Source of the DNA: Telopea speciosissima
Lineage: Eukaryota; Streptophyta; Magnoliopsida; Proteales; Proteaceae
Length of the DNA: 64,000 bases
Reading direction: 5' to 3'
Assembly: GCF_018873765.1 (NCBI RefSeq)
Contig: NC_057925.1
Coordinates: 45,291,010 to 45,355,009, forward strand
Shown: one piece after another, positions 6,201 to 63,990 of the stretch
How the letters are laid out: every line of letters begins with the position of its first letter
Numbering within the stretch: the stretch's first letter is position 1
Translations under genes and position numbers: made by a program
The notes under the pieces: generated by a model
What the model saw: only the letters and a program-made list of their open reading frames with translations
What the model was told of the DNA's origin: nothing
Database searches by the model: none

Positions 6201-9200
6201 ATACCCGATCCCCAAGCAAACTTGAACCTCGTGGCATTCTCTGTATTTTCTTGGGATATTCTCCATCCCAAAAGGATTATAAATGTTACCATCCCCCCAC
6301 CCGTTCAGTATGGATGTTATCTTTTATGAGGCTCTCTCCTATTATCAATCTACACCTCTTTAGGGGGAGGATTTCAGTGAAGATGTGTTGGTTGAGCTTC
6401 CTGTACAGAACCAGCCGAATATTGACCCCACCCCTCTTGACCCTCTGGCTCCTCCCATACCTCCTAATGAAGACAGAGAGGATTTTCCACAAGTGGAGAA
6501 CTTAGATGCCTAAAATCCTATGGTTGAAAATCCCATTTAGGGAGAGTTGACTCCTGTCCAACAAACTATTAGGGAATTTCAGAAGAGAATCAATGACTCT
6601 AACATCAAAACCTACCACAGAGGATATTCCAAAAACAAGCAGCTTCCATCCACTACAGCACCAGTACCAATCCAGTTGCCGGCTTTGGAACCAGATCATT
6701 CTCCTGGTAACATCTCTTCTCCCCCTTCTCCTGACTTACCTATTGCTCATCGCAAAGGTATTCGGGCTTGCACACAACATCCTATTTCTCATGTAGTCTC
6801 TTATGATTCCCTTTCTCCATCCTTTCGTACATTTGTCTCTTCTCTTTCTTTTGTTCGTATTCCCCAGAATTGGCAGGAAGTTTTTACAGATGGAAAGTGG
6901 AAGGCAGCAATGATGGAAGAAATGAAAGCCTTACAAAAGAATGATACGCGGGAACTTCTGGTTCTTCCTCTAGGAAAGAAACCAGTTGGATGTAAGTGGG
7001 TGTTTGTGGTGAAACAGAAGGTAGATGGTACTGTGGATCGATACAAAGAACGATTGGTGGCAAAGGGATTTACTCAGACTTATGGGATCGACTACCAACC
7101 TACCAGGAGACTTTCGCACTGGTTGCAAAGCTGAACACTATCAGAGTACTACTATCTTGTGCAGTAAATTTGGGATGGGAATTGCAACAGTTAAATGTGA
7201 AGAATGCCTTCCTCCATGGAGAGCTTAAAGAGGAAGTGTATATGGATATTCCACCGGGTTTCTCACGTGATAAAACTAGTAGCAAAGTCTGTAAATTGAA
7301 GCTTGCTTTATACGGGCTGAAGCAGTCACCTCGTGCATGGTTTGGACGATTTCACAAGGCTATGGTTTCTGTGGGTTATAAGCAAAGTAATGTTGATCAT
7401 ACTCTGTTTATAAAAAGGAATGGTGAAAAAATAACCATTCTCATAGTCTATGTGGATGACATTATGGTCACCGAGAATGAGAATAATGAGATCAGCAAGT
7501 TGAAGACTTACCTTGGCCAAGAATTTGAAATAAAAGATCTAGGAAACCTAAAGTACTTTCTAGGGATAGAAGTTGCTCGATCTTCTAAGGGCATATTTCT
7601 TTCTCAAAGGAAGTACATCCTAAATTTGTTGATAGAGATTGGATTGCTAGGATGTCATCCTTCTGATACACTTATGGAAGCTACTACACGACTTAAAGAA
7701 AAGGAAGGTGCACCGGTTGACAAAGGTCGTTATCAGAGATTGGTCGGCAAGCTTATTTATCTATCTCATACACGACCAGATATAGCAGTCGCTGTAAGTA
7801 TGGTAAGTCAGTTCATGCATGATGCTCACTCTTCTCACATGGATGCTGTTCTCCGAATCCTCCGGTATTTGAAATCAGTCCTAGGAAAAGGAATCCTTTT
7901 GTCTCCGAATGGCCATCTTCGTGTTGAAGCATATACTGATGCAGATTGGGCTGGATCCTCTGATAGGAAGTCCATCTCCGGTATTGCTCATTTGTTGGTG
8001 GAAACTTTGTTACATGGCGTAGTAAAAGCAGAACGTAGTGGTAAGGTCTAGTGCTGAAGCAAAATTTCGTGCTATGGCACACAGTACTTGTGAATTGTTA
8101 TGGCTCAAAGGCTTGTTGCAAGATCTTGGTACTCCAGTCCGTCTTCCCATGATGTTGTATTGTGACAACAAGGTTGTAATCAGCATTGCTCTCAATCCTG
8201 TTCAGCATGATCGTACCAAGCATGTGGAGGTTGATAGACACTTTATCAAAGAGAAGTTGGAAGAAGGGTTGGTCTGTGTCCCTTTTGTGAAGTCTGCTGA
8301 CCAACTAGCTGATGTGTTCACTAAGGGATTAAGTGGGAAAGCTTTTCATCCTATTCTTGTCAACTTTGGCATGGTTGATATTTATGCTCCAACTTGAGGG
8401 GGAGTGTTAGAATAAGTAGTTCTACCCAATAAGGGTATTTTTGTCTATTTTTATGATTTTCTCCCTTAGCCGATTCTTATTAGGTATTCCTAATTAGAAT
8501 TGGCAAGGGTAGCTTTCCTAATTCTAGTCTGAGTGATTGTAACTCTTTGAATATAAATAAAGGAGCTTGGTGATCCAGATTAATCACTCAAGCATTCAGT
8601 TCTAAGGCTGTTTACATGTACCAAGTATGACCTCGAAGAGAGCCTATTAGAGGGCAAGGATACATGTAGCAGACCCCATTTAGCTGAGAATCTCCTAACG
8701 TGCTGGGTTGTGCCTCTTTCCTCTTACTATCTTTCATCTTTCACTTTTCATCCTTTTTTCTTTTATTAATTTTCCATCTTCATTTGTCATTTTTCCATTT
8801 TTGCATCTTTCATCTCTGTCTCCATCCCTCTTTTACCACCTCTTCTTTCTCTTTTTGGTTAGAACTCAGTTTTTCCTATTTTATTTTATTTGGATCCATG
8901 TAGCCGACCCCATTAAGTTGGGATAAGGCTAAGTTTGTTGTTGTTATATTGTCATTGTACAGAAGATTGGTTTGCCTCCTATTACGTCAGAAATGGACAA
9001 ATAAGATTTCTTAGAACCTCCTTCCATCACTTCAAAAAGAATATTCTATTAAAAGAGAGAAGGGAATATATATAGAAAAGAAGGAGCACCAAGGGAAGGG
9101 GAGATAAACAGGAAAAGCTGAATCTGTGTAAAAGTAATCCTTTGACATCCCATGCTTGGCAAATTCAACCTTGAATTCATTGATCTTGGCATCAGATAAA

Positions 9201-11878: not shown

Positions 11879-13642
11879 TGAAAAGGGTTTTTTACAATTA
11901 CCACCCCAAAATCTTTACTATCTACTATTATTTCCCTCAAAAAACTTTCAAACAACTGTTACCCCCCTCTGATGAATACTAATCACTAACTGACCCCACT
12001 GTTATATTTCCGTAACGGTGGGGGTTAGTCGTGACAGTGTGCCGTTGTCATGAATTTTCAAGGATCAAAATGCCCCTTTGGGTTGGTAATTGTAAAAACA
12101 AAAAAAAAAAAAACGCCCATCATCGTGCTTCTCCTTCTCCTTCTTCTTCTTCTTCTTCCTCCTCTACAACCCCAAAATGTGGCTGCCATCAAACCAAAAT
12201 AAAAAACATTGGATGGAATGAAACCACGCCGCGAAGTCTCTCCACCTGTAAAAGGATCATCAGTAAACATCTAATCCCGCAAGCTTCTCCTGAAAAAATT
12301 TTGAATCGTAAACCCTAAATTTGTTATGAACATAAAAATCCTAAATTACCACTGTTCTGACTGCTGCCTGAGAAGAAGAACATTTAAAATCCTCCCTCCA
12401 ATGAGCAAACTCTCTTATTTATTTCCCCCTGTATCCCTTTCTTTACTTTATGATTTCTTCGTGACGCCATGGATGGATGTACACTTGTACAGTGTTAATA
12501 TCGTAAAAGAGAAGGAAAGGGTTTTCGTATTTTGTTTGTTTATTATCAATTTTTGCCTTTTGATTTCAATTATACTTTTTCATGAATTATTTCCCCATTT
12601 TTAGGAAGGATAATAATCTATTCAACTTGAATCAGATACCCCACCAATGTGTGCCATTTAATCTTTCACTTTTAAATTTGAAAGTTAGAAAAAAAATACA
12701 CAATTAGAAAGATAAGATTATTCGATGAAAGATTCTGGGATTCGGGGAGTGAAGGAAGGGTGAAGGAAGCTTTTGTCATTCAAAATAAAAAATGGATGAT
12801 CGATGGATTTGGACTTTTGGAGCAACAGATATTCCTGTAATGGCGATATGGTGTGAAATAATTAAGGGGGGAAGATGAGACATGAAAGGGAACTTATTCT
12901 AAAATGCTGTTGGGTAGTGGATAATGCTTTCAGGTCTCCATTAATGGGTGCATCCAAAGACATTGAAAGGGATAGAGATGAGTGAGCTAGCATATATTAT
13001 GGGATTCTGCTCCTCTCTCTTTTCTCCTCTTCATGCTAATAATAGCTGGATCCATTAACGTGGTGGGTGCTTAAATTTTGCTGCTATTTCTTAATTTTGA
13101 TGTCTCTCAGATTATTAATGAGTGTTTCAGGCGACACAATAACCAAGAAGTGAAAACTGGGATGAATTCCACCAGAGAATATACAAGGAATCACTGCAAA
13201 ATCAGACTCTTAAGCTTGCTTTGGAAGAACCCAGCTGAAGGAAAGGAGATTTATTCTACTCATATCCCCCTCACCAGAGAGAGAGAGAGAGAGAGAGAGA
13301 AAGAAGAGACTTCGCGGCGTGGTTTCATTCCATCCAAGGTTTTTGATTTTGGCATGATGACAGCCACATTTTGGGGTTGCAGAGGGAGAAAGGAGGAGGA
13401 CGGTGATGGTTTTTTTTTTTTTTTTTTTCAATTACCACCCCAAAAGGGTATTTTGGTCCTAGAAAATTCATGACAACGGTACACTGTCACGACTAACTCT
13501 CACCGTTACAGAAATGTAACGGTGGGGATCAATTAGTGATTAGTATTCATCAGAGGGGGGTAACAGTTGTTTGAAAGTTTTTGGGGGAGGGGTAATAATA
13601 GATAGTAAAGATTTTGGGGTGGTAATTGTAAAAAACCCTAAA
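11879..13642. mobile_element. MULE-like non-autonomous element with very long TIRs
   Basis: The outer arms 11885-12254 and about 13309-13638 are reverse complements over some 330-370 bp. The core of the ends is gggttttttacaattaccac on both sides. Flanks carry tatataaa at 11871-11878 and 13643-13650, a probable 8-9 bp target duplication. The arms contain pyrimidine/purine tracts (cttcttctt, gagagaga) and the phrase gtcgtgacagtgtgccgttg. No transposase is seen; the middle (about 12255-13308) has only short frames. Long TIRs with an 8-9 bp duplication suggest Mutator-like elements; the superfamily call is inference. Confidence 0.65.
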
Positions 13643-15434: not shown

Positions 15435-16131
15435 GTTTCGACTCCTCTACTTCCAAAGATGGTACTTCCATCCTACTTCTGTGCACTCTTAATGTGCCAC
15501 GTGGCCTGACAACCATCCAACGGTCAAAAATGCAAAAATTCAAATTAAAGTGAAAAACACCTGAGATGTGTTTGAACCACCTTAAACTCAAAACCAAATC
15601 CACCCGACCGGTTCAAACACATCAAACCAACCTCTTTCACTCACTCTCACTTCTCCTCTTCTTCCACCAAGCTCCCTTCTCCTCTTCTTCCACCGAAAAT
15701 AGCATACATTTCTTCCACCAAGCTGCCGGACTTGGCACCGAAAATAGCTTACATTCCTCTTCTTCCACCATGCTCCCTTCTCCTGTTTTGGGTTTGGGTT
15801 GGGGTTGGGGTTGGGTTTACCAAAACAGGAGAAGGGAGCATGGTGGAAGAAGAGGAATGTAAGCTAATTCCGGTGCCAAGTCTGGCAGCTATTTTCGGTG
15901 GAAGAAGAGGAGAAGTGAGAGTGAGTGAAAGGGGGTTGGTTTGATGTGTTTGAACCAGTCGGGTGGGTTTGGTTTTGGATTGAAGGTGGTTCAAACACAT
16001 CTCTGGTGTTTTTCACTCTAATTTGAATTTTTGCATTTTTGACCGTTGGATGGTTGTTAGGCTACGTGGCACACTAAGAGTGCATGGAAGTAGGATGGAA
16101 GTACCATCTTTGGAAGTAGAGGAGTCGAATC
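15435..16131. mobile_element. Long palindromic foldback element, about 0.7 kb
   Basis: The left arm 15437-15791 and right arm 15820-16129 are near-perfect reverse complements. The outer ends are ttcgactcctctacttcc and its complement; the inner ends are cctgttttgg and ccaaaacagg. They leave a 28-base loop of GGGTTGGGG type at 15792-15819. Two frames on opposite strands both start MCLNHL and share most residues, which is a by-product of the palindrome, not two genes. The left arm carries an extra internal duplication of a cttcttccacc stretch. No clear target duplication was found. Confidence 0.8.
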
Positions 16132-20600: not shown

Positions 20601-21953
20601 CAAACAGAGGACATCGAATTTCCAATACAAAACCTATTTGAAGAAATTCATGAAAGGCTGAGGCGACTTAAAAGCTTAACAACGACCAGATGTTGTAAAC
20701 CAAATGGAATAATTAGAAGCTCCTTATACCTTTATTTCTCTTCCCAGAAACAAAGAAAAGGAACGAAAGCGCTTACGAAATATCCATGTGGACATTGCAT
20801 TCCCTTGAGAAAAAACCGTTGTTCTCTATTTGAACTTTCAAAGCACCATAAGAGAAATCAGGGCTCTTAGGGTTTCTTGTCTGAGGATTAACCATCGAAT
20901 CCAACGTGAGAGGCGGCATACAGTAGAGGCAACAACCACCCTCACCTGATGGGCTTGCAGAAGAAGAACGCTTCTTTCTATATAGCTTCTTCCTGACATT
21001 CCTGAAGAGAGAGACGACCAACAGAGAAGCTTCTTCAGAACTAGTTCAGATGTTCAAGGTTGTGTTGTTGGCCATTACCAGTAACTTTGTCGGAGAAGAT
21101 GAAGGCGCCGTTGAGATCCAACTAGGGTTCAGAGAGTTTGATCGCGAAAGGGAAAGAGAGTTCGACCAATTTTAACTTTGGGTTGACCCTGTGGTAAGGG
21201 TAACTTTATCATTATAAAAAAATTAACAGAGACTTAACTGCAGAGACCTAACAGAGTGGACTAAGTTGATATATATTCATAAAATAAGGGCAGTCTTTGA
21301 TATTTTTTCAAAGTTTGGGGTGTCCGTGACATATCAAATACTTATAGGGGGTGTCCGTGAAATTTGCCCTTAATTTTATAATTTATGTAGCCATTAGTAC
21401 AATAATTAATTACATGTTGGGACTGTAGCGACTTTATGAGGAAGGGGCGAGGACATTTTGGGTACATAATACGGGGCCGGTGGGCTGTTTGCCTTACGCC
21501 GTTATATATTACCCAAACAAGGACGGTTCGCATCTGGACCAGAACGGGTGTGTACGGACCCAAAACGAGGTGGCCCAGGACTTCAACCGGCAGCTTTTGG
21601 ACCGGATCACACTACTCAGGACTCAGTTCCCGCTAGCGGTTTTCACATACGTCGACGTGTATTACGCGAAATATGATCTCATCACCAATGCCATGAATCA
21701 AGGTTTCGTGGACCCACTTAAGTTTTGTTGTGGAAGCTATTACGGCTATCATGTGGATTGTGGGAAGAAGGCAGTGATCAACGGGACCGTCTACGGAAAT
21801 GCTTGTGAGAACCCTAGTAGTTACGTTAGTTGGGATGGGATCCATTACTCTCAGGAAGCCAATCGTCGTGTTGCAATCCGCATCTTTAATGGTTCCTTGT
21901 CCCACCCACCCATTCCTATCACTAAAGCCTGTCACGCTTCCTCGTCTTCATAA
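17663..21953 (+). CDS. GDSL esterase/lipase, four exons
   Basis: Exons 17663-17972, 18414-18602, 18687-18859 and 21429-21953 splice in frame to 398 residues with GT-AG introns throughout. The product is a secreted SGNH/GDSL acyl hydrolase of the plant ENOD8/At5g14450-like group; the substrate is unknown. A hydrophobic N-terminus (residues 14-37) fits a signal peptide. Block I FGDSNSDTG carries the catalytic Ser63. Block II is GANFAAGGAS with the oxyanion Gly126. Block III GQND carries Asn194. Block V DGIHYS carries Asp360 and His363. Length and the four-block order are normal for plant GDSL proteins. The chosen ATG gives the signal peptide; no other in-frame ATG before Ser63 does so as well. 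Intron 3 (18860-21428) is enlarged by a MITE and a MULE-like element that contains a solo LTR, yet all catalytic residues and splice sites are intact. No TATA box is obvious. Confidence 0.92.
18876..18998. mobile_element. Small foldback MITE in GDSL intron 3
   Basis: The left arm (gcttacgttcacgtac ... cagccgtcaagatggaatcc) is complementary to the right arm (ggattccatctttacggctg ... gtacgtgaacctgagc). About 120 bp, non-coding, just inside the intron donor. Confidence 0.65.
19023..21369. mobile_element. MULE-like element in GDSL intron 3
   Basis: An exact 9-bp target duplication, ttaatttta, lies at 19014-19022 and 21370-21378. The ends are inverted repeats of about 80-90 bp: ggataaatttcatggacacc on the left, and gggcaaatttcacggacacc on the right read in reverse. 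A 9-bp duplication with long TIRs is the Mutator signature. No transposase is visible. The interior holds gene-like GC-richer stretches (19150-19440, 20770-21180) that could be captured host sequence, plus a solo LTR. It accounts for most of the 2.57-kb intron. Confidence 0.8.
19801..20442. mobile_element. Solo LTR (probably Ty3/gypsy) inside the MULE-like element
   Basis: Begins TGATAAACCC and ends GACGCAACA (TG...CA). It is flanked on both sides by AGACC (19796-19800 and 20443-20447), a 5-bp target duplication. It is 642 bp, with a TATA-like tataaaaagg near 20252 and a downstream gcatcggagagtcc...ggccgg phrase resembling gypsy (Tat-type) LTRs I know. No internal region is present, so it arose by LTR-LTR recombination. 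Confidence 0.75.

Positions 21954-23083: not shown

Positions 23084-23163
<80 letters not shown>
23084..23163 (-). tRNA. tRNA-Leu (UAG)
   Basis: Reading the minus strand: acceptor GACAGTT pairs with AGCTGTC with discriminator A. The D-arm is GGCCGAGTGGTCTAAGGC. The anticodon stem CCAGA/TCTGG encloses loop TTTAGGC, giving anticodon TAG. A class II variable arm TCCGAAAGGGC follows, then the T-arm with GTTCAAATC. It is 80 nt without an intron and without encoded CCA, as in nuclear genes. Internal A box (TGGCCGAGTGG) and B box (GGTTCAAATCC) are intact, so it is likely transcribed by Pol III. Confidence 0.95.
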
Positions 23164-24946: not shown

Positions 24947-26640
24947 ATTTCCACCTTGGCTTCAATTCTACAAGCCACCCTGAAGAAAACCGGTATTGAT
25001 GTCATAGTTGCAAACTCCGCCACTATCTTTGTCTATCCACCATACCCGGAACAGGAATGGCCCACATCCCCACCTGGGTTATTCTTGCATGTCTGTCATA
25101 CCCAAATCGGCATAGCCCAAATCCCCACCCAGGGTGTCTCATACAGCTCACTACCGTCGCACGCTGACGTGGCTCCACCTCTCCTACCACTACTGCACGC
25201 TCCGAGAGAGCACCGCCACTCACCCAATCTGAAGTGAAAGCCACTCATTTCTTTCCAGACTTGCACCTGTTCATCGCTTGAACCATTTGCAGTTTTTGTC
25301 CTCCACCCTTACCTATTACCTGAGTTCCAACAATAGGTTCAACTATTTTAACACTTCTTGCAAGCTTGTGAAAATTCTCTAATCATTTGTCCCTGCAGCA
25401 CAACCATGGCCCCTCTTGAAACCCTGAGAACTACATCTTCAGATGAGCATCTGAAACCTATCGAATCCAATGTTCCCAGTGTTATCAGATTCATCCTTAG
25501 ATCTGGCACCTACCTCACCTCAGTCAAAGTTTGCACAACCCCATCAAACATGCGAATTCGTATAGTCCCAATCCCGACAACCTTGATTTTTGCATTATTT
25601 GTCATTTTAACAGTACCACTTTCACATGCATGATATGTAGCAAATTGATCCCTAACTGAACACACATGAAATGAACAACCAAAATCTAAAATCAAATCTG
25701 AGAATTTTGTACTTGATGACATAATGAAATAAACATCTCCATCGTCACTTCCACATTATCAACAGTGGATGATTTACCTTCCTTCTCCTTCTCTTTTCTA
25801 TCCTCCTTACACCTTGGACAATTCTTCTTTATATGAAATTCCTCCTCGCAATAATAACATGTTATTTTTCGACCTTTAGACTTTGAGCAGCCCTTCTACT
25901 TGTCGAACTCCTCCAATCTGTCACTTGATCTGCCTCTACTATAACCATCACATGCAACCATGGCACTACCCTCCTCTAACGCCCCCTCGCCACTATTTTT
26001 CCATCATGTCTCATTCATTAGCAAAGCATCAATAACCTCATCAAGTTTGAGAGAATTTTTACCAAACAGTAGTGTAGTTACAATGTGATCAAATGAAGGA
26101 GGTAGTGATGCCAATAGAAGAAGTGTCTCGTCATCCTTTTCAATTTGTACATCAAGAGCCAACAATTCCTTCAATATTTTAGTGAACTCTTCCAAATGTA
26201 CCTCAAACTTCGCTTCCTCTAATAACTAAAAACCATATAACTGTTTCTTAAAAAATAACTGACTTGTCAATGACTTAGATTAGGACTTGCTCTTTAGTTT
26301 TGCCCAGACTTCATCTGGATCCACCAACCCAATGACCCCAAGAAGAGTTTTATCTACAAGATACAACTGGATCGTACTGTTTGGCAAATCCCTAAACTCT
26401 TGCCATTCATCGTCCTTCATCTTCTCTGGTTTTTCTGATTTCTTCCTAAGAGCCTTAACTATCCCCTCCCACGTAAGAATATTCTTCACCCATTGTTGCC
26501 ACAGAGTAAATACAATCTTTCTCTCATCGCCATGGCTTGAACAGATGTCATACATCGACCTCTCCCATGACATATGCTGATGCTCAACTAAAATTGATAG
26601 CCGCCACCATGCCCAGAGTTCCTTCCCTATTGCATTTGTT
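24586..26640 (-). mobile_element. Ty1/Copia remnant, heavily deleted
   Basis: On the minus strand from about 26573: a gag-like region (WVKNILTWEG, DEVWAKL), CCHC zinc knuckle (near 25830), protease region (CSFHVCSVRD, MFDGVVQTL, near 25530-25680). It then passes directly to a polypurine tract at 24947-24959 and an LTR at 24586-24946 that begins TGTTGGTGTTATG. Integrase, reverse transcriptase and RNase H are absent and no second LTR is seen. The order and sequence fit Copia (Tork/Angela-like). It is an old, broken fossil. Confidence 0.75.
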
Positions 26641-26878
26641 TTGGTACTAGTTATAATTTATTGTTATTCACCATTTTGCAAGTTAATTTTAAAATGGAAA
26701 ATCCTTCCCTTGTAACTTAGAGAAGGATGAATATTTTCAATAGGTCAATATGATCTATCCGTAAAACAAAAATGCTGACCTCATAAAAGTGTGGTGTCAC
26801 AGTGAAATTAAATGTCATGCAAAATTATATTTAGTTTTCCCCTAGTTTGAATTGGGCTCCTCTGTAGTGTGGGGATAC

Positions 26879-29800
26879 TGTTACACCCGCACCCCAATTA
26901 CACCCTTATGTCCCTGGGAAGTTTAGACCTTTACCAAGGGCAATGCCATGGTGGCACCAACCAACACCTGTAACCTCAGACTTAAAACATTATTATAAGG
27001 GACCCCTTGGAGCCCTGGAAGTGTGGGTCAAAACCCCACAATTTTTCTTGAAGTTTGGGCCCTGACAGCAGCATCGGAGTCATGAATGGACTCACTCGTA
27101 CTGAATCCGCTCGAGGATTCGCCCATGCTGTTACTTGCCCTTTTGGTTATTTTTCTGTGGGACCCACATACCATTGTCCCGGACACTATAATTTGACCAT
27201 TGGACCATGTGGACCCCAGCCCTTACCCTTAGTTGGGTGAGTGGGCCATGAAAGTAGGGCCCACAAGGCCTAACTTAAGTGAAAAATGGGTTTTATACAC
27301 CCTACCCTAAACCAAACAAGCCTTAGAGGACAATTAAGTCCTATGGACTTGGGCTCAACCCCAAACAAGGCCCAACTAATTAATTGGACCCAATGGTTAT
27401 GACATGGACCAAACATGGCCTAAGACCTAACCCAAAACCCATTTAAACGTAAGGACAAACTACATTCTAGGGACCCCTAACGAAACATAACCTAAGGCCC
27501 CTTCTACCCCTTAAAGATAAGAGGATCCCCTTTATTCCCTTATCTCTCCCCCTCCCAAGCAAATCGTGGAGAAGAAGAGACAAGAGAAGAAGGAGGAGGA
27601 GGAAGGAAAGGGAAAAAGTAGAAGTGGGATAGGAATGAGAGGGGAAGGGAAGAAGAGGGAAGCCATGCCAAGATGGTTGGCTGCCCCACATCTCCTTCTC
27701 TTGCTGTCCGGACGAAGGGAGAAGAAGAAAGTGAAGGAGAAGAGATGGAAAGGAAGGGAGGAGAGCAAGGGGGCTCACCTAGCCTTGGATCTTGCCTCTC
27801 CATTGGAGTTCCTCACCAAGGTAAGACTCCAAGTTTGATACCTCTCTTTCTCCATTTTCTTTTTATGTTTTGGTTGATTCCTTAAGCTTGGACTGACCTA
27901 GAGTTCCATTTGGGACTCAAGGTGGAGCTCAATCCCTAGTTGGAGCTCTAATGGAGCTGACCTAGACCTGGTTTGAACTCCCATGAGCAGCATTTGCAGC
28001 CATTGCTACTAAGTTTTGGTTTTGAACCTTGAAACCCAACCCTTGGACCAATTTGAGACCAATCCTTGTTGGATCTTGGATCCATGAGGTCAAGCCTAGG
28101 TTTTGGTGACCCTAGGAAGGTTTAGACACCCCTCCTATGTCCTTGAGAACTTGGGGCAGTCCAAGCTTCAAGCTGGAGCAAAAGCCCTTTGAAATCTCAG
28201 ACTGGATTATTGGAGGACAAACGATCGGATCCACCAATCATGGTACCGTCCGTCAGTCCATCTAGTACAAACCCTACGAAATGACCTAAACGGATGAACA
28301 AATGGACTCAAGTCTGTTGCATCCGCCCAAGGCCAGTTGCTCTCGGGTATGTCTCAGGAATCGAACGGATGCAGGGGCGGACTCAAGAAGCACATCCGCC
28401 CGTTGATCCGCTCCCTTTTTTGTGTGCCTCTGGTGTCGAACAAATGCATGATCGAATCTAAGTAAGATGTTCTGCTTGTGGGTCCACTCGCTCTATTTTT
28501 ACCTTTTAGCCTGAACGGAATCAGGGGCTGATCCACCTCTGTTGAAACCGTCCGTGAGTCTGCTCGTGTTGTCTTGATTGAAACTTGATTTTAATCTTGG
28601 GGGCCTAGTATGGGACCCTTCTATACATGCTTTAATGATTTCTTTTGTATGTTTAGGCTGGTGTACCGGTGAGATTCATGTGAACCACGCCGGATGACAC
28701 CTGATGCCCAGGGAGATTCATGCCAATCACGTCGGGCTACACCCGAGTTTGGTGAGTGGGTTCTGGGTGACTTTGTTGAGCTTGAAAATTATATATATTT
28801 GGCAATATTAAGCATGCTATTGTATATTTATATGCATCATGTGCATTTGCATTGAATATCTTAATTGTGTACTGTTGTGAATGTGATAGCATGCTCACCA
28901 TTGTATCGGGCTACAGTGTCGGGTGTGCTGGTGTCGGAACCTCAATTTATTTAATTATGAAAACTGCTATATGCCATCCTGATCTATATGTGACGTGCTG
29001 TGCTGGTACCCTGGTACTAGATGGAATGGGACGTTAAAGCACCTGGAATACCTCTCGGGACGATAGGATCTGCATATAGTATATCTGTGGCTAGGATGCT
29101 TGCTCCCTTATGCTATGACCCTTGCCAACAGGGGTTTATGTGTTGGATAGTTAGAGCACCTGATGGCTGTGGAGGCGGGAGAGGTCAGGTCAGGGGTAGT
29201 GATGGCTATCGGGGTCTGCCACTAGGTGGTCATGATGGCTTCTACCGGCGTAGATCCCCTCATGATAATTGAGGTTTCACTGGGGCGATAGGATAAGTGA
29301 CCCTCAGTGTCTCACGAGTTATCATAGTAGCATATACTTGACCGATAGAATTATGTGTGTTAGGTGGAAAATGAATCTAACATTAGCATGCATCATTCTG
29401 CTTGATATTGATTGTGTGATGTATGCGCATTCCCCATTGCTCTCTCACTAGCTAGTGTAGCTAACCCCGTTGTACAACCTTTTTTAGTTTATATGTAGAT
29501 AACCTCTTGATGAGCATCATTGGATGCGAATCAAGTGGAGCCGGTGACTGTGACTTGGATGTAGATGTACACTCAAGAGTGTGGCGTCCTTGGGATAATT
29601 AATTATTATTTAATTTTTGTATTCATTCTACAATCATGTATAAACTGTGTGTTTAATTATTAGGAGAGATTGAATGGTTATGAACATTGTTATTGTACTA
29701 TGTGTTATCATTAGAGAACCGATGCTCTATAATTTTGTATGTTTTAATTTAATTTCGCTTCCGCTAACTCTGTAATTGGAACAATTAATTCCATTTGGTA

Positions 29801-29952
29801 CGTTCCTTTCTATCATCATATTATGGTGACAGGGCGGACTGTGGCTCGGGACACTGTATCTGTGATCCTGGTAGGTATTGGGATGTCGTGTGATTATCTC
29901 AGTCACCTCCTAGTGTGGCAAAATATCTTACATCGGAACGGAGGGCGTGATA
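26879..29952 (+). repeat. Left LTR, 3.07 kb
   Basis: Direct repeat of 34733-37808. It contains a purine-rich block (about 27560-27770), which yields spurious Lys/Glu-rich frames, and a cluster of aacggat/atccgcc motifs (about 28200-28560). Confidence 0.9.
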
Positions 29953-30301
29953 GAGTGGTATTAGAGCGATGATGCTCTGCACCGACCACAGTTTGGGCGT
30001 AACCTCTTGATTTACTCTTCACAAATTAGGTCCTGAATTAAAAATCTCAAGAACATAAATCATTGTGTGCAGACATAGGCAGGAAACTAATTGGAGTGAA
30101 AACAAGAACCTAGAAGATAATAGGCAACATGAAGATTAGTACTTGAAACTTAGACTGTGGGATATAAATATGTAATTATTTGTTGTGTGTTAACTGGTTA
30201 AAGATTGGGTCACTATAAGTGATTGTCCCTGATATACAATGAATTAAATACAACCAACCCACAATTATGAGCAATGATCTAAAAGAGGGAATTAAACAAA
30301 A

Positions 30302-30346
<45 letters not shown>
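30302..30346. repeat. (TA)n microsatellite
   Basis: About 20 TA units in the interior of the long-LTR element. Confidence 0.9.
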
Positions 30347-30348
<2 letters not shown>

Positions 30349-30849
30349 CTAAACATAACCATTCCTATGATTCCAAATTCTTCCTGAAGGCAATTATATC
30401 CTTCACAATTTGACACCTGTGATTTTATCCTGTTTAACCCAGATTTTTGAATCCAACCATGAATGTATCGAATTTCTATTTGGGCATATTTGTGCCCTCT
30501 CTAACTTAAAACACCAGATTCCACCTATCTGATCCAAACGCCTGATGGTAACCACACAAGATTAATATATACATCTATTAATTTTAAAGGTTTTCAGATT
30601 GTTCACACTGTCAGATCAAAGGAGGAAAAGAGAAATGCAAGAAACTAAAGGCGAAGCAAAATGAAAATAGTTCCATAAACTACCCATCAAGGGTAAGAGA
30701 CAAAAAAGACTGCTAAAATAACTTCAGAGAAATGCTGGAGGAGAACTGGGTTAGTCATCTACACCGTCACCACCACCGCGACTAAGAAAGGCATTGATGT
30801 CATCTACTCCTCGCTCTATGGCCGCAAGATGCCAAGCTTGGGCATTGAG

Positions 30850-31909
30850 TTACTTCCTGACTCCATCGAAGCCATCCACCACCCTCACGCTCAGCCGCTT
30901 GATGGCCATCGACATGTCACTTCCTTCCCTTGGTGTATCTGAAGGCCCTGTTGCAAATGGTCCAGAACCCCTGAGCTCGGGATCGCTATCACTATCATCC
31001 CCCTCATCATCCCTGACCCCTCTACCCTCCCTGTACTGAACTTGCTCCCCTATACTATCATGAATATGGTACAAGTTCATCTTTTGCAGTGCACCGAATC
31101 CAATAGGCCCCTCAGTGCTTGATTCTTTGGGCTTATGGTCCAGATCGACCTCGAAGCATAAGAAGACCAAAGTGAGCAACCGACCATAGGGCAGAGTGTG
31201 GTTGCGGGCAAGATTCATTACAGCGCGGGCTATGTGCTTCATGATCACATATGGAAGGCAAATAGGCTGGCCAGTGTATAGAGAGTGAGCTAGGACTACG
31301 GACATCAAAGAAGGATGTGTGCCGTGTGCTCTAGGGGGAGCCAAATTTGTCTTGGCAATAAAGATGAGAACTTATTGAGAAGGAGGAAATTTGGAGAGGT
31401 CTTCATTCTCCTCGTATTTATTATTTGTCAGAACCTTGAATAACTTCTTACTCTCCTCTGAGTGCAGGCATTTGTCTGGGTGACTTCCTAGAGAATAGTA
31501 AACCCTTTTTCCCTTTGCTGAGACATCAAGGATAATTCCCAACTCCTTTGTAGTAAAGCTAATGGCAACCCCTTTTACAAGTGAAGTCAGCCTGAGGTCA
31601 TCATCGTCCCCCTCGGTCAACAATAGATTAGAGTAAAACTCTTGGACTAAGGTAGGGTAATAAAACTCGGGCAGGAATTAGCATATTGCTCCACTCCAAT
31701 CTTTCGAACCTAGCACCCACTTTGTATGCCAACAGCTCCTCCATTGTCATATCCCTTTCCACGAGAATCCTTCTGTTAAAGAGGTGCTCCCGAAAAATTC
31801 CCTCGGTCCTCTCAGGAGTGAATTGATGTACATTGTAGGTAGTGGAGATGGTAGGCACAATGGCAGTGTTCCTTTTCCTTTTAGGAGCTATAGAGTCACC
31901 TACACACAT
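30850..31909 (-). other. Antisense coding-like region in the LTR element (putative plant transposon protein type)
   Basis: The minus strand encodes MTMEELLAYKVGARFERLEW, LRLTSLVKGVAISFTTKELG, LPYVIMKHIARAVMNLARNH and LPYGRLLTLVFLCFEVDL, followed by an acidic tail. This resembles the domain often labelled putative plant transposon protein, found in many plant repeats and of unknown function. It runs opposite to the LTR transcription sense. The front follows a possible splice acceptor (tgtgtag) near 31900, with possible upstream antisense exons toward 32790; that is inference. The region is broken in a few places and I treat it as a fossil. Confidence 0.6.
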
Positions 31910-32929
31910 AAGGCATCATCAAAAGAAATAGCAAGGGTAAGCCAAATGGGAAAGATAGCATATGACGGGCAGTTAGAATTAGGGAAGTGAAATGCTTAAG
32001 TAATAAGGGAATGGTTTGACAGGAAGACTATACATGATGATGAAAGTAAAAAAGAAATAACTATGAATGTATTATATGACATGGATATTATTGGAGATGT
32101 GTTAGGAATAAAAGGGGAAAAACAAGATAAATTCGCACACAGAGTTATGTGAGTTCCTTTAGTGTGTGGGAGTGAAGAAGTGAGGTTGGTGTAAACAATG
32201 TGTACTTCTAGCTTTCTTATATATCCCAACTAATGTCAAACAAGCAAGTGATCGGATGAAGTACCCCAACAAGAGACAAGAATTAACTTACTTGAAGAGA
32301 AAGGGAATGAATACCTGGGACTTATTAGAAATAAGAATAAAAGTATATACTTGAGGATAAGACAATGGAATAGTATCTTTAGATGCATACAATGGATTAA
32401 ACATGGACTTGACGGGTTTTCCCAAAGCATGAAGGGATTAAAGAGTTTATCCAATCAAGCCTAGGACTAACTCAAGTCATTTAACTAAACATAGTAAGCA
32501 ATCTCTACAATGCTTATAAAGGATGCAAAGAGCAAGTAAGAAGCCGCTCCTATAGTGTCATTGATTAATAGAGCATAATTTAAATCCAAAAGCCTTAGCC
32601 CAGATCGATTTTGGCATGGACTTGGTATATATGGCCATGAAAATGTAAACAAAATCAAGGCATGATCATACTTGGAATGATTCATCACAAATTCAAGCAG
32701 AAAAGTAGGAGAAGATGAAGAGACACAAGTAAAATCTTACAGTGAGAAGAAAGGAGAAAGGAAAGGAAATAAGAGAAAAGAAATCTTACCCTAATTAAGT
32801 GGGGATCTTTGAGGCTTGAAGTTGCAAGAGATCCACTCAAGGAAGCCCTGTAGTGCCCTTCTCCCTCCCTGCGGTTATGTTTTCTTTTGGAGCCAAATGA
32901 GTTTTGAAGTTCACGGTTCTGTTTTTGTT

Positions 32930-33240
32930 AAAATTCTGCGAACGGACGAACAAACGGATCCACGATCGTGACTCCGATCATTAATCCGCCCCGCATAAGA
33001 TTTGAAAATTGTCATTTTAAAATTGACCGGATCAACGAACGGATCCACCGCTATGAGTTTGTCTGTAGATCCGTTTGATTCATATTCTCTCGGTCGTTTA
33101 AAATTCTGAGGACAGACAAACGAACGGATTCACGTTCTGCATCCGCCCGTTGTCCGCTCTCCCTGTTTTGTGGAGGGACCACGAACGGAACCAGAGTACT
33201 GATGTCGCTCATGAGTCCGCTCGAATTCTTTTAGGATTTT
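32930..33240. repeat. Cluster of degenerate aacggat / atccgcc motifs
   Basis: Motifs such as gaacggacgaacaaacggat, acgaacggatccaccg, acgaacggattcacg and catccgcccgttgtccgctc recur about every 60-80 bp. The same kind of motif cluster occurs in both LTRs (about 28200-28560 and 36055-36420). Confidence 0.6.
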
Positions 33241-34732
33241 GAGCCCAGATTTTTGGAGACCTTCTGACCACACCCATATGTGTTGATTGTATGCCTATAC
33301 CCTAGATTGGACACCCTGGTTGAGTGACCCAATTGTGGGGGCCACCTAAGTTGAGTCAATACCTTAAACTGACGGGGATTAGAACTTGTACCCGACTGGG
33401 CCAACCAATAAGAAATGGTAGGCATTGATGACCATCGTGACTCCCCTCTTACCTAAAAGGAGGAGAGTTACTCTTGGGAATGAAGACCCTTAAATCCTAT
33501 GACCTGAAGGACCTAAACCTTTATGAATAGGAAGACTAAACCTGTGGGTAGGTATTAAAAAGGAAAGTAATGGGCTGGCTTGGACTGGTTCATTTGAAAG
33601 AGCCATAAAGGCCATGTGTACTGGAGATCATTTATGACACCTCAAATTAGTGACGACTCTATCTGTACTTTGCTTGGTTCATCCCAACCTTATTTAGACT
33701 CATAGAGGGAGTTTTACACCATGAGTTGACTCTCCAGAAGGAACTTAGAAGACCGTACCCGAGGACTTTTGTTCTTGTAGACTGACCTAGATGACAGATA
33801 TATCTATAGGATTATGAATGTAATTCTTGAAGTCTTGCCTATGTCTTGGTGTGATATATATGTATATATATATACCCCTTAGGATCTTGGACTTGTGTGA
33901 CTAGAGTGATTCTCTAGTACTACAAGTATAGTTTTACTTTGGTCTTGATGTGATCACTTAGTTGAGCCCTGACCCTTGGTCACATTGATCACTGGGTAGT
34001 AATTAACGAATTCGCCAACGATGGGGTAAATTAATTAACATGATTTGACTTAGACCGAAATCATAGAAGGTTGTCTGGCTCTCGAAGGAGAACCATAATG
34101 GATTTTTCCCCTGTGGAATAACTGTGTGATAGGTTTAAAGACCTTGAAGGTTGAAACTGAAGGATATAACAGGACCTTCTCCAATGACAGATATGAATGG
34201 GGTAATGGATCACCAAATGCGTTCCCTCCGTACGGGGAGTGAACAATAGGAGATTCCATCAATATTCCAAATCATTCTAAAGTTGGGTAAGGTAATGAGA
34301 TAACCAAAAGTGAAAGCATCCCAGATGTGAACCCTATGTCGGGGACTGGACAGGTTAAGTCTGTAACCTAAGTCCGACCAGAATAGTGTTTTACACACTA
34401 AACTAAGCCACCTAGAGCAGAAAGTCCCCTAGATTCTCTAGATCAAGTGATGCCCCTCTAACCTACTGGTATACTACGACCACCGGCTCTAAAATCAATT
34501 GAAGCCAGGGTTATTGTGGATCACACCCCTGCGGTAATGTGACCCTTTAAGGAAAAAAGAAATGGTGAGATCTAACTTGCTGTGTCATATAGGCACTGGC
34601 TCACCTTGACCCGACCTCTTGACTCAGCCCATGTACTGGGTAAAGGGAAGTGTTGTCGTTCAACAAAGCCTCACCCCGGGGATCGGGATTGCCTCAAATT
34701 TTGGGGATAAAATTTTAATAAGGTTGGGGGGA

Positions 34733-37700
34733 TGTTACACCCGCACCCCAATTATACCCCTATGCCCCGGGGCAGTTCAGACCTTTACCAAGGGCAATGC
34801 CATGGTGGCACCAGCCAACACTTGTAACCTCAGACTTAAAACATTATTACAAGGAGCTCCTTGGAGCCCTGGAAATGTGGGTCAAAAATCCCGTAATTTT
34901 CCTTGAAGTTTGGGCCTTGACAGCAGCACCGGAGTCACGAACGGACTCACTCGTACTGAATCCGCTCGAGGATCCGCCCATGCTGTTACTTGCTCTTTTG
35001 ATAATTTTCCTATGGGACCCACATACCCGTGTCCTGGACACTATAATTTGACCATTGGACCATGTGGACACCAGCCCTTAACCTTAGTTGGGTGAGTGGG
35101 CCATGAAAGTAAGGCCCACAAGGCCTAACTTAAGTGAATAATGGGTTTTATACACCCTACCCTAAACCAAACAAGCCTTAGAGGACAATTAAGTCCTATG
35201 GACTTGGGCTCAACCCCAAACAAGGCCCAACTAATTAATTGGACCCAATGGTTATGACATGGACCAAACATGGCCTAAGACCTAACCTAAAATCCATTTA
35301 AGCCTAAGGACAAAACTACATTCTAGGGACCCCTAACGAAACATAACCTAAGGCCCCTTCTACCCCTTAAAGATAAGAGGATCCCCTTTATTCCCTTATC
35401 TCTCCCCCTCCCAAGCAAATCATGGAGGAGAAGAGACAAGAGAAGAAGGAGGAGGAGGAAGGAAAGGGAAGAAGTAGAAGTGGGAGAGGAATGAGAGGGG
35501 AAGGGAAGAAGAGGGAAGCCATGCTAAGGTGGCTGGCTGCCCCCACATCTCCTTCTCTTGCTGTCTGGACGAAGGGAGAAGAAGAAGGTGAAGGAGAAGA
35601 GATGGAAAAGAAGGGAGGAGAGCAAGGGGGCTCACCTAGCCTTGGATCTTGCCTCTCCATTGGAGCTCCTCACCAAGGTAAGACTCCAAGTTTGATACCT
35701 CTCTTTCTCCATTTTTATTTTATGTTTTGGTTGATTCCTTGAGCTTGGATTGACCTAGAGTTCCATTTGGGACTCAAGGTGGAGCTCGATCCCTAGTTGG
35801 AGCTCTAATGGAGCTGACCTAGACTTGGTTTGAGCTCCCATAAGCAGCATTTGCAGCCATTATTGCTAAATTTTGGTTTTGAACCTTGAAACCCAACCCT
35901 TGGACCAATTTGAGACCAATCCTTGTTGGATCTTGGATCCATGAGGTCAAGCCTAGGTTTTGGTGGCCTTAGGAAGGCTTAGACACCCCTCCTATGTCCT
36001 TGAGAACTTGGGGTACTCCAAGCTTCAAGCTGGAGCAAAAGCCCTTTGAAATCTCGGACTGGATTGCCGGCGGATGAACAATTGGATCCACCAATCGTGG
36101 TACCATCTGTCAATCCGCCCAGTACAAACCCTGCGAAATGACCTGAACAGATGAACGAACGGACTCAAGTCTGTTGCATTCGTCCGAGGCCAGTTGCTCT
36201 CGGGTATGTCTCAGGAATCGAACGGATGCAGGGGTGGACTCAAGAAGCACATCTGCCCGTTGATCCACTCCTTTTTTGGTGTGCCTCTGGTGTTAAACAG
36301 ATGCACGATTGGATCTAAGTAAGATGTTCCGCTCGAGGGTCTGCTCACTCTGTTTTTACCTCTTGGCCTGAATGGAGTCAGGGGCAGATCCACCTCTGTT
36401 GAAACCGTCTGTGACTCCGCTTGTGCTGTCTTGGTTAAAACTTGATTTTAATCTTGGGGGCCTAGCATGGGACCCTTCTATACATGCTTTAATGATTTCT
36501 TTTGTATGTTTAGGCTGGTGCACCGGTGAGATTCATGTGAACCACGCCGGATGACACCCGATGCCCGGGGAGATTCATGCCAATCACGTTGGGCTACACC
36601 CGAGTTCGGTGAGTGGGTTCTGGGTGACTTTGTTGGGCTTAAAAATTATATATATTTGGTAATATTAAGCATGTTATTATATATTTATAAGCATCGTGCG
36701 CATTTGCATTGAATATCTTAATTGTGTACTGTTGTGAATGTGATAGCATGCTCACCATTGTATCGGGCTACGGTGTCGGGCGTGCCGCTGTCGGAACCTC
36801 AATTTATTTAATTATGAAAACTGCTATATGCCATCCTGATCTATATGTGTCGTGCCGTGCTGGTACCCGGGTACTAAATGGAATGGGATGTTGAAGCACC
36901 CGAAATACCTCTCAGGACAAAAGGACCTGCATATAGTATATCTGTGGCTAGGATGCTTGCTCCCTTATGCTACGACCCTTGCCAACAGGGGTTTATGTGT
37001 TGGATAGTCGGAGCACCTGATAGCTGTGGAGGCAGGAGAGGCCAGGTCAGGGGTAGTAATGGCTATCGGGGTCTACCACTGGGTTATCATAATGGCTTCT
37101 ACCGGCGTAGGTCCCCTCGTGATAATTGAGGTTTCACTAGGGCGATAGGATAAGTGACCCTCAGTGTCTCCCGAGTTATCATAGTAGCATATACTTGACC
37201 AATAGAATTGTGTGTGTTAGGTGGAAAATGAATCTAACATTAGCATGCATCATTCTGCTTGATATTGATTGTGTGATGTATGCGCATTCCCCATTGCTCT
37301 CTCACTAGCTAGTGTAGCTAACCCCGTTGTACAACCCTTTTTAGTTTATATGCAGATAACATCTTGACGAGCACCGTTGGATGCGAATCAAGTGGGTTCG
37401 GTGACTGTGACTTGGATGTAGATGTACACCCAAGCGTGTGGCGCCCTTGGAGCAATTAATTATTATTGAATTTCTGTATTTATTCCACAATCATGTATAA
37501 ATTGTGTGTTAATTATTAGGAGAGATTGAATGGTTACGAACATTGTTATTGTACTATGTGTTATCATTAGAGAACCGATGCTCTATAATTTCGCATGTTT
37601 TAATTTAATTTCGCTTTCGCTAATTCTATGATTAGAACGATTAATTTCATTTGGTACGTTCCTTTCTGTCATCATATTTTGGTGACAGGGCGGACTGTGG

Positions 37701-37808
37701 CTCGAGACACTGTATCTATGATCCTGATAGGTATTGGGATGATGCGTGATTTTCCCAGTCACCCCCTAGTGTGGCAAAATATCTTACATCGGGACGGGGG
37801 GCGTGATA
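34733..37808 (+). repeat. Right LTR, 3.08 kb
   Basis: Direct repeat of the left LTR, placed directly after the polypurine tract and followed by the target duplication GATAC. Confidence 0.9.
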
Positions 37809-38051
37809 GATACGGTGGAAGATGTCTAGCGCACCACCGGAGCTCGACACATCTCCGAGGTACCCTTCAGATGGCTCGGATTGATGCGCACATCTGACGA
37901 TGACTGAGTAGGAAATAATTCTCTCCATCGCATGTGCAGTACGATCAGACGTGTGCATCCATCCAAGCTGTCTCAAGGGCACCTCGGCCACGTATCGAGC
38001 TCCGATGGTGGGCCAAACATCTTCTAGCGCACCCCCACACTGCAGAAGAGC
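37809..38051. mobile_element. Palindromic MITE split by the long-LTR element
   Basis: The left arm (gatgtctagcgcaccaccgg, agctcgacac) is complementary to the right arm (gtatcgagctccgatggtgg ... catcttctagcgcaccccca). The outermost left end, gggctcctctgtagtgtggg, lies at 26856-26875, on the other side of the LTR element. It matches the complement of the right end ccccacactgcagaagagcc. The MITE was therefore the insertion target. Confidence 0.7.
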
Positions 38052-38518
38052 CGGATCCCCCGAGTTTTTGAGGCCCTAATTAATCCCATCTGACATGTTC
38101 AAACTTCAACTACCCCCTATGAACCTACTTTGAGGTGGTTTACCTGTTGTTAGCAACCCTTATGGAAAATTCTTCAAATTAAGATGACACAAATGATGAT
38201 TTAATGTATCTATCTCTCATCTCTTTTTTTAAAAAAAATTAAATTTTTTTCTTGTCTTTTATTTGACTTCCAAACATAGCCTAAAAGAGAGAATAGAGAA
38301 GTGATGAGAAAGCTTTGAAACCCAAATTCCTAACACTGCCTTTACAAACTTAAGTTAACACTTCATTATTTAGAGTAACCATATGAGGCAGCAATTTTGC
38401 TTCTGGGATAGATAGGACATGATTAGACAAGCCACAAACATGTGCCCTTATGTATTGGCCCTTTTCATAGTCCATGTCATGGTCTTTGCTCCTTTGTCAT
38501 AATCCTTGATTACTTTTA
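38052..38518. other. Intergenic, no feature seen
   Basis: AT-rich sequence without a supported gene or repeat. Confidence 0.5.
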
Positions 38519-52550: not shown

Positions 52551-54152
52551 TTAGATGAACTTTTACTTGACAAATCATCTAATCATGTGACAAACAAGTG
52601 ACATTTTTCTTCACCATTTCCACACCTGTAAGTTCTTCTAAGCACACTTAAATTTAAATACCAAAATATAAATTCTAATATTGAATATTTAATTAATCTT
52701 TATTACACCAAACCTTAAATCAACCTGAGTTGATATGACTTTAAACCATTATTTAAACAAACATTTGAAAAAGTAGAAAAAATTTCAGATTTTTCTTTCC
52801 GTTTTCAAAATTGGTTAAACCATGATTTAAGATTAGATTTAGTTACACCAATCAAGATTAATCTAAGGTTTGATTTAACTAAGATTTATTAAAAATTAAA
52901 AACTGAAATTTAAATATTAACCATTAGATCATATACCACATGTAACAAAGAAGGATTAAAAACTTAAGATCAGGAAATGGAGAGAAAAAAACCCGTCCAA
53001 CTGTACAAAGAAGAGAAAACACTGATATTTATTCACAAAACTTAAACTTGTAAAATGAAGAATGGATGACCAAACTTGTGTAAAATCATGTCAACCAGTA
53101 TAAATAAGCCTCAGATAGCCGCTTGTCATCAAGAGGAAAACTTCAGACGGTAATTCCAACATAAAGCAATATCATCATAGGCTTTAATTAGTCAAACTTT
53201 AATAAGAAAAAGGTAACAACACATAACTTGCTTACTTTGATATCTACATACCCACACCAATTAGAAACACAACACACAACTCCTCAAATAAGAAAGAGTA
53301 GGAAAACAAGGAAAGAGTATGTGTGAGAGGATGGACAACAAACGATTTGTAGTTCATGTCAAAATGTATCACACAACTTCAACCCTTGGTCTCACAATTT
53401 CACTTCTCCCGTTTGACACTATATCCTCTATACTCCCACATCTCCACATGGGGTTTCACCGTCCATAGAGTGTGGGTCTCATCAATCAAAATGAATCTCA
53501 CACCCCATAAACAGTAAATCCCAATGCAAAGAATGTTCAAATGTAAGAAAGGAGTTTGATCTCCAATCTCACATCTCATCCACTCTGAGACACTCTCCTT
53601 GTTTTCTCTACATGTGGAATTCCACCGATTATAAAAACTCTTCAGATTTGGTGGAATCCAAAGCATGATCGATAAGATCTCATGCGTAAAGTTAACACAT
53701 TGAGGACGAAAGGATCTAGACTAGTGGTACTCTCAACCCTTCTCATCCGTATTTGACAAACCATGTTCGCCTTAAAAATAATAACTCAATTTGATCTATT
53801 AAACAAAATGTAATCGCAGAAATCGGCTCTGTGGATGAATGGGATATGATCAGATCCACAGATTCCTATCAGCATACGAAACTTGATATTGGTCCAATCA
53901 TAGCATCGCCGGCCATTGCTATGTTTATCATTAACTACCGGCGACGTGGCATCGGACCTTCTTTAACACTTTTCTCCATCTCTAAGAGAAGAAGAGGGGG
54001 AAAAAAAAAAGAAAATAAGCAGGGAAAACAAAAAAATCTATGAAAGAAAAAAGAAAAGGGGAGAAGGAAAACCCTCAGTGACCCGTGTCAAATCAAACAC
54101 ACAGAGCGGAAACCAAACCAAAAATCACAACCAACTAAACCAACGAACCTCA
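52551..54152. other. Intergenic, no feature seen
   Basis: AT-rich; short frames only. No supported gene or element. Confidence 0.45.
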
Positions 54153-54274
54153 CAGTAGAGAGCGAATCGATCCATGAAAAATCGAAACGAACGCAGTAGA
54201 GAGCGAATCGATCCATGAAAAATCGAAACGAACGCAGTAGTGAGCGAATCGATCCATGAAAATCGAAACGAACC
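54153..54274. repeat. 41-bp tandem repeat, three units
   Basis: Units start at 54153, 54194 and 54235: cagtagagagcgaatcgatc followed by catgaaaaatcgaaacgaac. The first two are identical; the third has small differences. Confidence 0.95.
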
Positions 54275-54905
54275 AATAAATGAGATCGTCTATGTTAGGT
54301 TGATTGGGAAGTGTGGAATGGCTGGAAAACCGCTGCTGTTTTGGAGTGTCAGACGGCTCTTCTTATCAATGGGATTGTTTCCTCATTGGGATTCCTTATC
54401 TTCCTCCATTACTCTTCCCCTCTTTCAAGGATAAACCGTTCGTTTCTTCCCCAATCCACCCTAACGTCCACACCTGAAAACCCTAACCCTAACCCACTAA
54501 AAAGGCTGACGCCCTCCCAACAATAGCTCCCAAGCACAGTTCAGAAAAACTGAATCAAAATAACATTGGCTTGACATTGCAAAGGAAGGAAAGCTTTATA
54601 TAGACATGAATCCCTAACGGGTGCCCTAAATCCTAAAACCCTAAATCGCCGCAGTACATCGATTCATCCAGTGCAATTCATGCGACCAAAAACAAAAGGC
54701 GAGTGATCTACCGTTGGATCTGAATATTCCCCTTCGACTTTACTAAAATAAGAGGATATCTAAACCATGTAAAATAGGAGAATTTTCAAACTATCAAGAG
54801 GATCCTACGAATGAGGATTCGCCATGGAATAGATCGAACAGCCAGCAAAGATCAACCGAAAAGGGTCAAACCATCCACAAAAACTAATGTTTATATATTT
54901 TTTTT
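54275..54905. other. Intergenic, no gene supported
   Basis: Contains a short ccctaaccctaaccc telomere-like stretch at about 54480-54495, too short to mean more. Frames here are short and have no known domain. Confidence 0.4.
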
Positions 54906-63898: not shown

Positions 63899-63937
63899 AC
63901 TGCCGGCAAACACAGTACTAGGGTTTACAGGGAGTAT

Positions 63938-63990
63938 CACGTACAGAGACAGAGAAAACTAAACACGTACAGAGACAGAGAAAAATCTTT
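63938..63990 (-). repeat. 26-bp tandem units in the LINE 5' leader
   Basis: cacgtacagagacagagaaa is present at 63938 and again at 63964 (plus-strand reading), a 26-bp period. It lies just upstream of ORF1, where L1 elements hold their internal promoter. Confidence 0.7.

Follow-up and report, generated by a model that had tools for sequence, protein, structure and literature searches.

How does a retrotransposon that encodes nothing recognisable in its own direction of transcription come to carry the remains of a gene on the opposite strand? The question is raised by a window of the Telopea speciosissima genome, by which we mean the whole stretch of 64,000 nucleotides analysed here, in which positions 26879-37808 are one whole long terminal repeat (LTR) retrotransposon. 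No gag-pol domain was found in the interior of this element, and the one credible protein match lies in an antisense frame that resembles the Pfam family PF20167 and is broken in this copy. The element lacks a recognisable gag-pol, resembles the large retrotransposon derivatives (LARDs) and carries the fossil of an antisense accessory-type gene. It was probably non-autonomous, a LARD-like LTR retrotransposon moved by the proteins of another element.

A whole LTR retrotransposon without gag-pol domains

The features by which LTR retrotransposons are recognised, namely paired LTRs, a target-site duplication (TSD), a primer-binding site (PBS) and a polypurine tract (PPT), are all present in the element, as listed here in the order of their positions.

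26874-26878, no strand: left TSD, GATAC, exact match to 37809-37813
26879-29952, plus strand: 5' LTR, TGTTAC...GTGATA, 3074 bp, 93.0% identical to 34733-37808
29956-29967, plus strand: PBS, tRNA-Met-like, TGGTATTAGAGC, 3 nt past the end of the 5' LTR
34720-34732, plus strand: PPT-like tract, AAGGTTGGGGGGA, imperfect in that it is not all purine, abutting the 3' LTR
34733-37808, plus strand: 3' LTR, 3076 bp
37809-37813, no strand: right TSD, GATAC, exact match to 26874-26878

The exact 5-bp duplication, PBS, PPT and paired LTRs described in the earlier note on this DNA were thus all recovered. We take the PBS to be of the Met type, with one base off the consensus. Comparison of the window with itself joined 26879-29954 and 34733-37810 in a single continuous alignment of 3079 columns (93.0% identity). 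When aligned with MAFFT, the two LTRs differed at 211 of 3073 aligned sites (180 transitions and 31 transversions) and by four 1-base gaps, giving a Kimura two-parameter (K2P) distance of 0.0731. If 1.3e-8 or 7e-9 substitutions accumulate at each site in a year, this divergence places the insertion at about 2.8 or 5.2 million years ago.

The interior (29953-34732, 4780 bp) was searched with Pfam in six frames with stops written as X; matches with E-values up to 10 were asked for, of which HMMER discards most above 0.1. No gag, protease, reverse transcriptase (RT), RNase H, integrase or chromodomain match was obtained in any of these frames. The three sense frames yielded 0, 0 and 1 Pfam families and the three antisense frames 0, 1 and 0. 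The sole sense match, to MOZART1, is regarded as chance (E = 0.031; 14.5 bits, where the cut-off is 27). The claim that the sense strand has no recognisable coding capacity therefore held up: a sense gag-pol, the finding that the earlier note had named as contradicting it, was looked for by profile search and none was found by Pfam. Since the LTRs are just 7% diverged, a gag-pol that was intact at insertion should still match the profiles strongly, and gag-pol was most likely lost before this copy moved.

LARDs are large retrotransposon derivatives with interiors that have no coding capacity, such as Sukkula of the Triticeae. The present element resembles them in that it keeps 3.07-kb LTRs, a PBS, a PPT and a TSD without gag-pol, and differs from them in that its interior holds a broken antisense PF20167 frame and an intron-like stretch. 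The LARD-like character proposed earlier accordingly agrees with the long LTRs (3074 and 3076 bp) and with the lack of any gag-pol domain in six frames.

Rfam gave no match at gathering score within 26000-38500; four matches to microRNA (miRNA) models in the same range were below threshold and were set aside, as they seem to reflect a right-flank palindrome and a low-complexity stretch of the LTR. The segment from the right end of the element onwards (37801-38040) matched the Rfam model MIR1437 on both strands, with 62 and 45.4 bits against a gathering score of 168, which makes an imperfect palindrome probable. A small inverted-repeat element may thus have been present at or next to the site of insertion. 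In the left flank, a weak copia-type gag match (PF14223, E = 0.026, below cut-off) was seen on the minus strand at 26280-26657. The 19-base start of the LTR had no exact match in viral contigs.

The antisense PF20167-like gene and its intron-like stretch

The single antisense family was PF20167 (Transposase_32), matched in one interior frame with E = 1.1e-10 and 42.2 bits over model positions 12-176 of 177. This agrees with the class of putative plant transposon proteins to which the antisense region had been assigned from the letters alone. The parts of the antisense gene are given here in its own direction of reading.

32790-33240, minus strand: putative 5' leader or promoter side, with a diverged repeat and palindromic modules of the CGGATCC type, as in the LTR
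31900-32789, minus strand: predicted intron-like stretch, 890 nt, with GTAAGA at its 5' end and TAG at its 3' end
31628-31915, minus strand: piece of 95 amino acids, basic N-terminal part in a frame different from that of the domain
31372-31677, minus strand: piece of 101 amino acids, N-terminal part of the PF20167 domain (Pfam E = 5.8e-07)
30850-31371, minus strand: piece of 173 amino acids, C-terminal part of the PF20167 domain and an acidic tail (Pfam E = 0.017)

The two domain pieces lie in one frame and are split by an in-frame stop at 31372-31374, while near 31675 the frame changes, the two frames overlapping at 31628-31677. These two lesions break the antisense PF20167 gene of this copy, a point that is absent from the earlier note. 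At 30850-30852 lies a further stop, which may be damage or the natural end of the gene, since 31 open codons follow in frame (counted from the coordinates). A TatD_DNase match to the 101-residue piece is regarded as chance (E = 0.12, 12.2 bits against 27), and the predicted structure of this piece was too poor for a structure search (mean pLDDT 55.5). Two antisense protein pieces had 5 and 16 pattern matches in viral contigs, none of which was confirmed.

The openness of the frame is not due to chance. It contains 2 stops in 380 codons, compared with a mean of 20.6 and a minimum of 11 in 500 single-base shuffles of the other 378 codons. Decay was simulated by random mutation under three mutation biases with 1500 runs each. 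With the mutation level set to 0.0366 per site, which is half of the LTR divergence, the expected number of new stops was 0.7-1.0; the probability of 2 or more was 0.15-0.26 and that of 2 or fewer 0.93-0.97. Likewise, from the four LTR gaps about 0.7 insertions or deletions are expected in 1.14 kb by hand calculation, and one frame change was observed. The damage is such as an open frame could have suffered by neutral decay after insertion, and the antisense frame was probably open, or nearly so, when the copy inserted.

Just upstream of the frame in the antisense direction, the minus strand has a donor-like GG/GTAAGA (GT from 32789) and an acceptor-like GTGTAG (ending at 31900). Between these sites the minus strand is 41% T and 24% A, whereas T and A make up 26% and 27% of the reading-frame region and T makes up 24% of the leader side. 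A T-rich composition is the usual look of plant introns and 3' flanks. On these grounds the 890-nt stretch appears intron-like, and the possible intron that had been suggested for the antisense gene thus finds a counterpart with canonical ends.

The leader side contains a diverged direct repeat (32928-32989 and 33098-33157, 75.8%). A bacterial-type promoter scan of 32700-34000, which is not designed for plants, stayed near shuffle level. Palindromic modules of the type CGGAYTCA...TGNATCCG were seen in both LTRs (27088-28410 and 34942-36190) and, within the interior, next to the antisense leader (32941-33220). As raw counts in which the LTRs are counted twice, 17 of the 19 window matches to a loose form of this pattern, some of them overlapping, and 12 of the 17 window occurrences of AACGGA lie inside the element.

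A nested inner element around the antisense gene was rejected, as Pfam found no pol there and the repeat searches no inner LTR-like pair. A repeat search with exact 14-base seeds returned the outer LTRs only, and a looser search TA simple repeats and one diverged 62-column repeat only.

Relatives of the element and its surroundings

The first kilobase of the LTR was used as a query against the 823-Mb genome (1287 contigs). A total of 42 matches were listed, with the best 40 of 2412 first-look candidates scored, so that the copy number is a lower bound. Two of the matches are the element itself, and the other 40 are 79-90% identical to the query. Pairing by listed position gave at least five further same-strand LTR pairs with spacings of 7009-8290 bp, as compared with 7854 bp in the present element.

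C1:54834376/54841928, same strand: LTR pair, spacing 7552 bp
C6:3994326/4002616, same strand: LTR pair, spacing 8290 bp
C3:49636292/49644027, same strand: LTR pair, spacing 7735 bp
C11:34336653/34344379, same strand: LTR pair, spacing 7726 bp
C11:14806948/14813957, same strand: LTR pair, spacing 7009 bp

The two closest LTR relatives among the matches listed are on C5. Because of these LTR relatives and the five pairs of like spacing, the search supports the existence of a mobile family of apparently like-sized elements in the host genome.

The start of the LTR and the Met-type PBS presumably resemble those of Tekay/Del chromoviruses, from which the element differs in that no RT, integrase or chromodomain was found in it. 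A Met-type PBS is not diagnostic of lineage, because tRNA-Met is the commonest PBS type in plants, with 39% of the elements surveyed according to the sections consulted of a survey (PMC6317226), which also describe the extra open reading frames (ORFs) of plant elements as highly mixed in origin.

Antisense accessory ORFs lie between pol and the 3' LTR in the plant elements covered by the consulted part of a review, where their function is given as not known and where gene23 of Grande is described as transcribed from its own promoter with a nuclear product (PMC7264820). Those of Retand, Grande and RIRE2 (aORF-3R) resemble the present case in being antisense ORFs inside the interior. The accessible part of a Retand study reports that 97% of clusters encode an antisense Transposase_28 (PF04195), and gives LTR lengths as 315-1194 bp and interior lengths as 7380-12869 bp (PMC11963269). 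Ten of the 63 Retand clusters lack some gag-pol domains and, in the parts consulted, none lacks all (PMC11963269); non-autonomous elements with antisense ORFs were therefore already known. The present element differs in having no gag-pol found, an LTR of about 3075 bp, an interior of 4780 bp and PF20167 as its antisense family. PF04195 was not among the Pfam matches in the six interior frames, even with E-values up to 10 asked for, and the LTR and interior sizes fall outside the Retand range, so that the likeness to the Tat/Ogre/Retand type put forward in the earlier note found no support.

In the part consulted of a sunflower study, PF20167 is reported for ORF(+) of Athila 14, among active elements with GAG and POL ORFs (PMC11728184), and we read the (+) as the sense orientation. 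The antisense gene belongs to the same domain family as this Athila ORF-1-like ORF, whereas it lies antisense to the LTRs with no pol found. Athila, like Retand, is recognised by its place in RT phylogeny, and in addition by an extra ORF that follows pol. Titles and abstract openings contained no published antisense PF20167 gene in a gag-pol-less element, which is weak evidence since subscription literature was mostly outside their scope. Apart from the one paper found for PF20167, the Transposase_32 literature was by title not on plants, and the literature found for "putative plant transposon protein" consisted of genome-wide association studies. In the literature consulted, antisense accessory genes sit beside at least part of gag-pol, and the combination seen here (no gag-pol found, PF20167, antisense orientation and an intron-like leader) differs from the elements published there.

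Elsewhere in the window, 3103-8618 is occupied by a Ty1/copia-type element. Its LTRs are short (188 columns, 95.7%), it matches a reverse transcriptase profile (PF07727, E = 6.9e-52), and its coding pieces are spread over several frames. In a LINE-like element on the minus strand at 58123-63958, separate ORFs match a CCHC zinc knuckle (E = 1.9e-12), RVT_1 (E = 5.7e-31) and the RNase H-like RVT_3 (E = 2.4e-17). On the same strand, snoR77Y, snoR2/U65 and snoU49 all scored above gathering at 53103-54391, perhaps as one snoRNA cluster, and a tRNA matched at 23084-23163 (61.3 bits against 29). A GDSL lipase-like coding piece at 21429-21950 (PF00657, E = 2.9e-16) is probably the exon of a host gene. 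An inverted repeat pair joins 11884-12241 and 13305-13639 (83.9% over 360 columns), and 15745-15866 matched many unrelated miRNA models, mostly on both strands and all below gathering scores, and is probably a palindrome.

Origin of the antisense gene

If the element was moved by the proteins of another element, as we think probable, its 5' LTR would have driven a sense RNA of full length, and packaging and reverse transcription of this RNA would have been provided in trans by an autonomous relative. The interior would also have held an independent antisense unit, consisting of the leader, one intron of about 890 nt and the PF20167 frame, which was presumably expressed and would have been carried along as the sense RNA was copied. 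The intron would survive reverse transcription because antisense splice sites and 3'-end signals are unread on the genomic RNA. After insertion, the open frame would have decayed neutrally.

Several observations weigh against such an intron-bearing gene that was open until insertion. The PF20167 score of 42.2 bits is under the curated gathering cut-off of 45, and the N-terminal part lies in another frame, where the 95-residue piece has no Pfam match of its own. No in-frame ATG occurs from the acceptor-like site to residue 56 of this piece; this gap, the frame break and the stop at 31372-31374 imply that no whole protein can come from one frame in this copy. Other non-coding parts of the interior are also 30-38% T on the minus strand, as raw percentages (38% downstream of the frame, with the TA repeat, and 30% in the far upstream part). 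None of the polyadenylation-type hexamers AATAAA, ATTAAA and AATATA was found when the minus strand was read from 30757 to 30000. As for the promoter of its own that the earlier note thought possible, the TATA-like runs within 32900-34100 are confined to 33860 and 33874, roughly 1 kb away from the donor on its upstream side. The simulations gave P(2 or fewer stops) = 0.18-0.47 at 0.15 per site and 0.06-0.29 at 0.2, and neutral decay may thus have gone on for about 4-5 times the age given by the LTRs, up to some 0.15-0.2 per site. Finally, the relatives are known by their LTR positions, and this copy may be the sole one with the antisense gene.

That a once-autonomous Ty3/gypsy element inserted here and that its gag-pol then rotted past recognition is very improbable: it has no direct support beyond a 4.78-kb interior that is almost long enough for gag-pol, and the weakly diverged LTRs, together with the absence of any gag-pol profile match in the three sense frames, stand against it. 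The antisense gene may instead be a chance passenger. In that case all or part of a PF20167 gene, perhaps donated by an Athila-type element, would have been inserted or recombined in reverse into an ordinary gag-pol-deleted element and would be present in one or a few copies. The report of PF20167 for the sunflower Athila ORF(+) (PMC11728184, in the part consulted) and the broken state of the gene would fit such a capture, yet neither pol nor an inner LTR-like repeat pair was found around the gene, the intron-like stretch is retained, unlike in a reverse-transcribed mRNA copy, and the damage is about what the age of the insertion predicts, although it is compatible with a recent capture too. 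We consider this origin unlikely.

On the unlikely side too is an accessory gene selected for the element, in which case sister copies would keep the frame and a nuclear protein would influence how the element is expressed or moves; roles of this kind have been proposed for gene23 of Grande and the antisense ORFs of Retand. The frame was probably near-open at insertion, and antisense accessory ORFs are described in several plant families, with the maize Grande ORF having its own promoter and a nuclear product (PMC7264820, in the part consulted). Here, however, the protein family is a different one, PF20167 and not PF04195, and an element that is non-autonomous lacks its own gag-pol on which an accessory protein could act. 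Quite unlikely, in our estimate, is a whole family of gag-pol-less elements in which the sole selected gene is an intron-bearing antisense PF20167 gene. Such elements would parasitise other retrotransposons, having given up their sense genes while keeping an accessory factor of their own.

If such a family exists, antisense would be the one orientation that lets a spliced gene outlast reverse transcription. Introns on the genomic strand would be spliced out in the copying cycle, and the intron-like stretch therefore offers a checkable reason for the antisense orientation. An element with an antisense accessory gene alone would naturally separate such genes from gag-pol. Conservation of the antisense frame in other copies would mean that the gene serves the element even with no gag-pol in cis, and a lack of conservation that it is cargo. 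The gene fossil may show how such elements acquire or retain extra genes.

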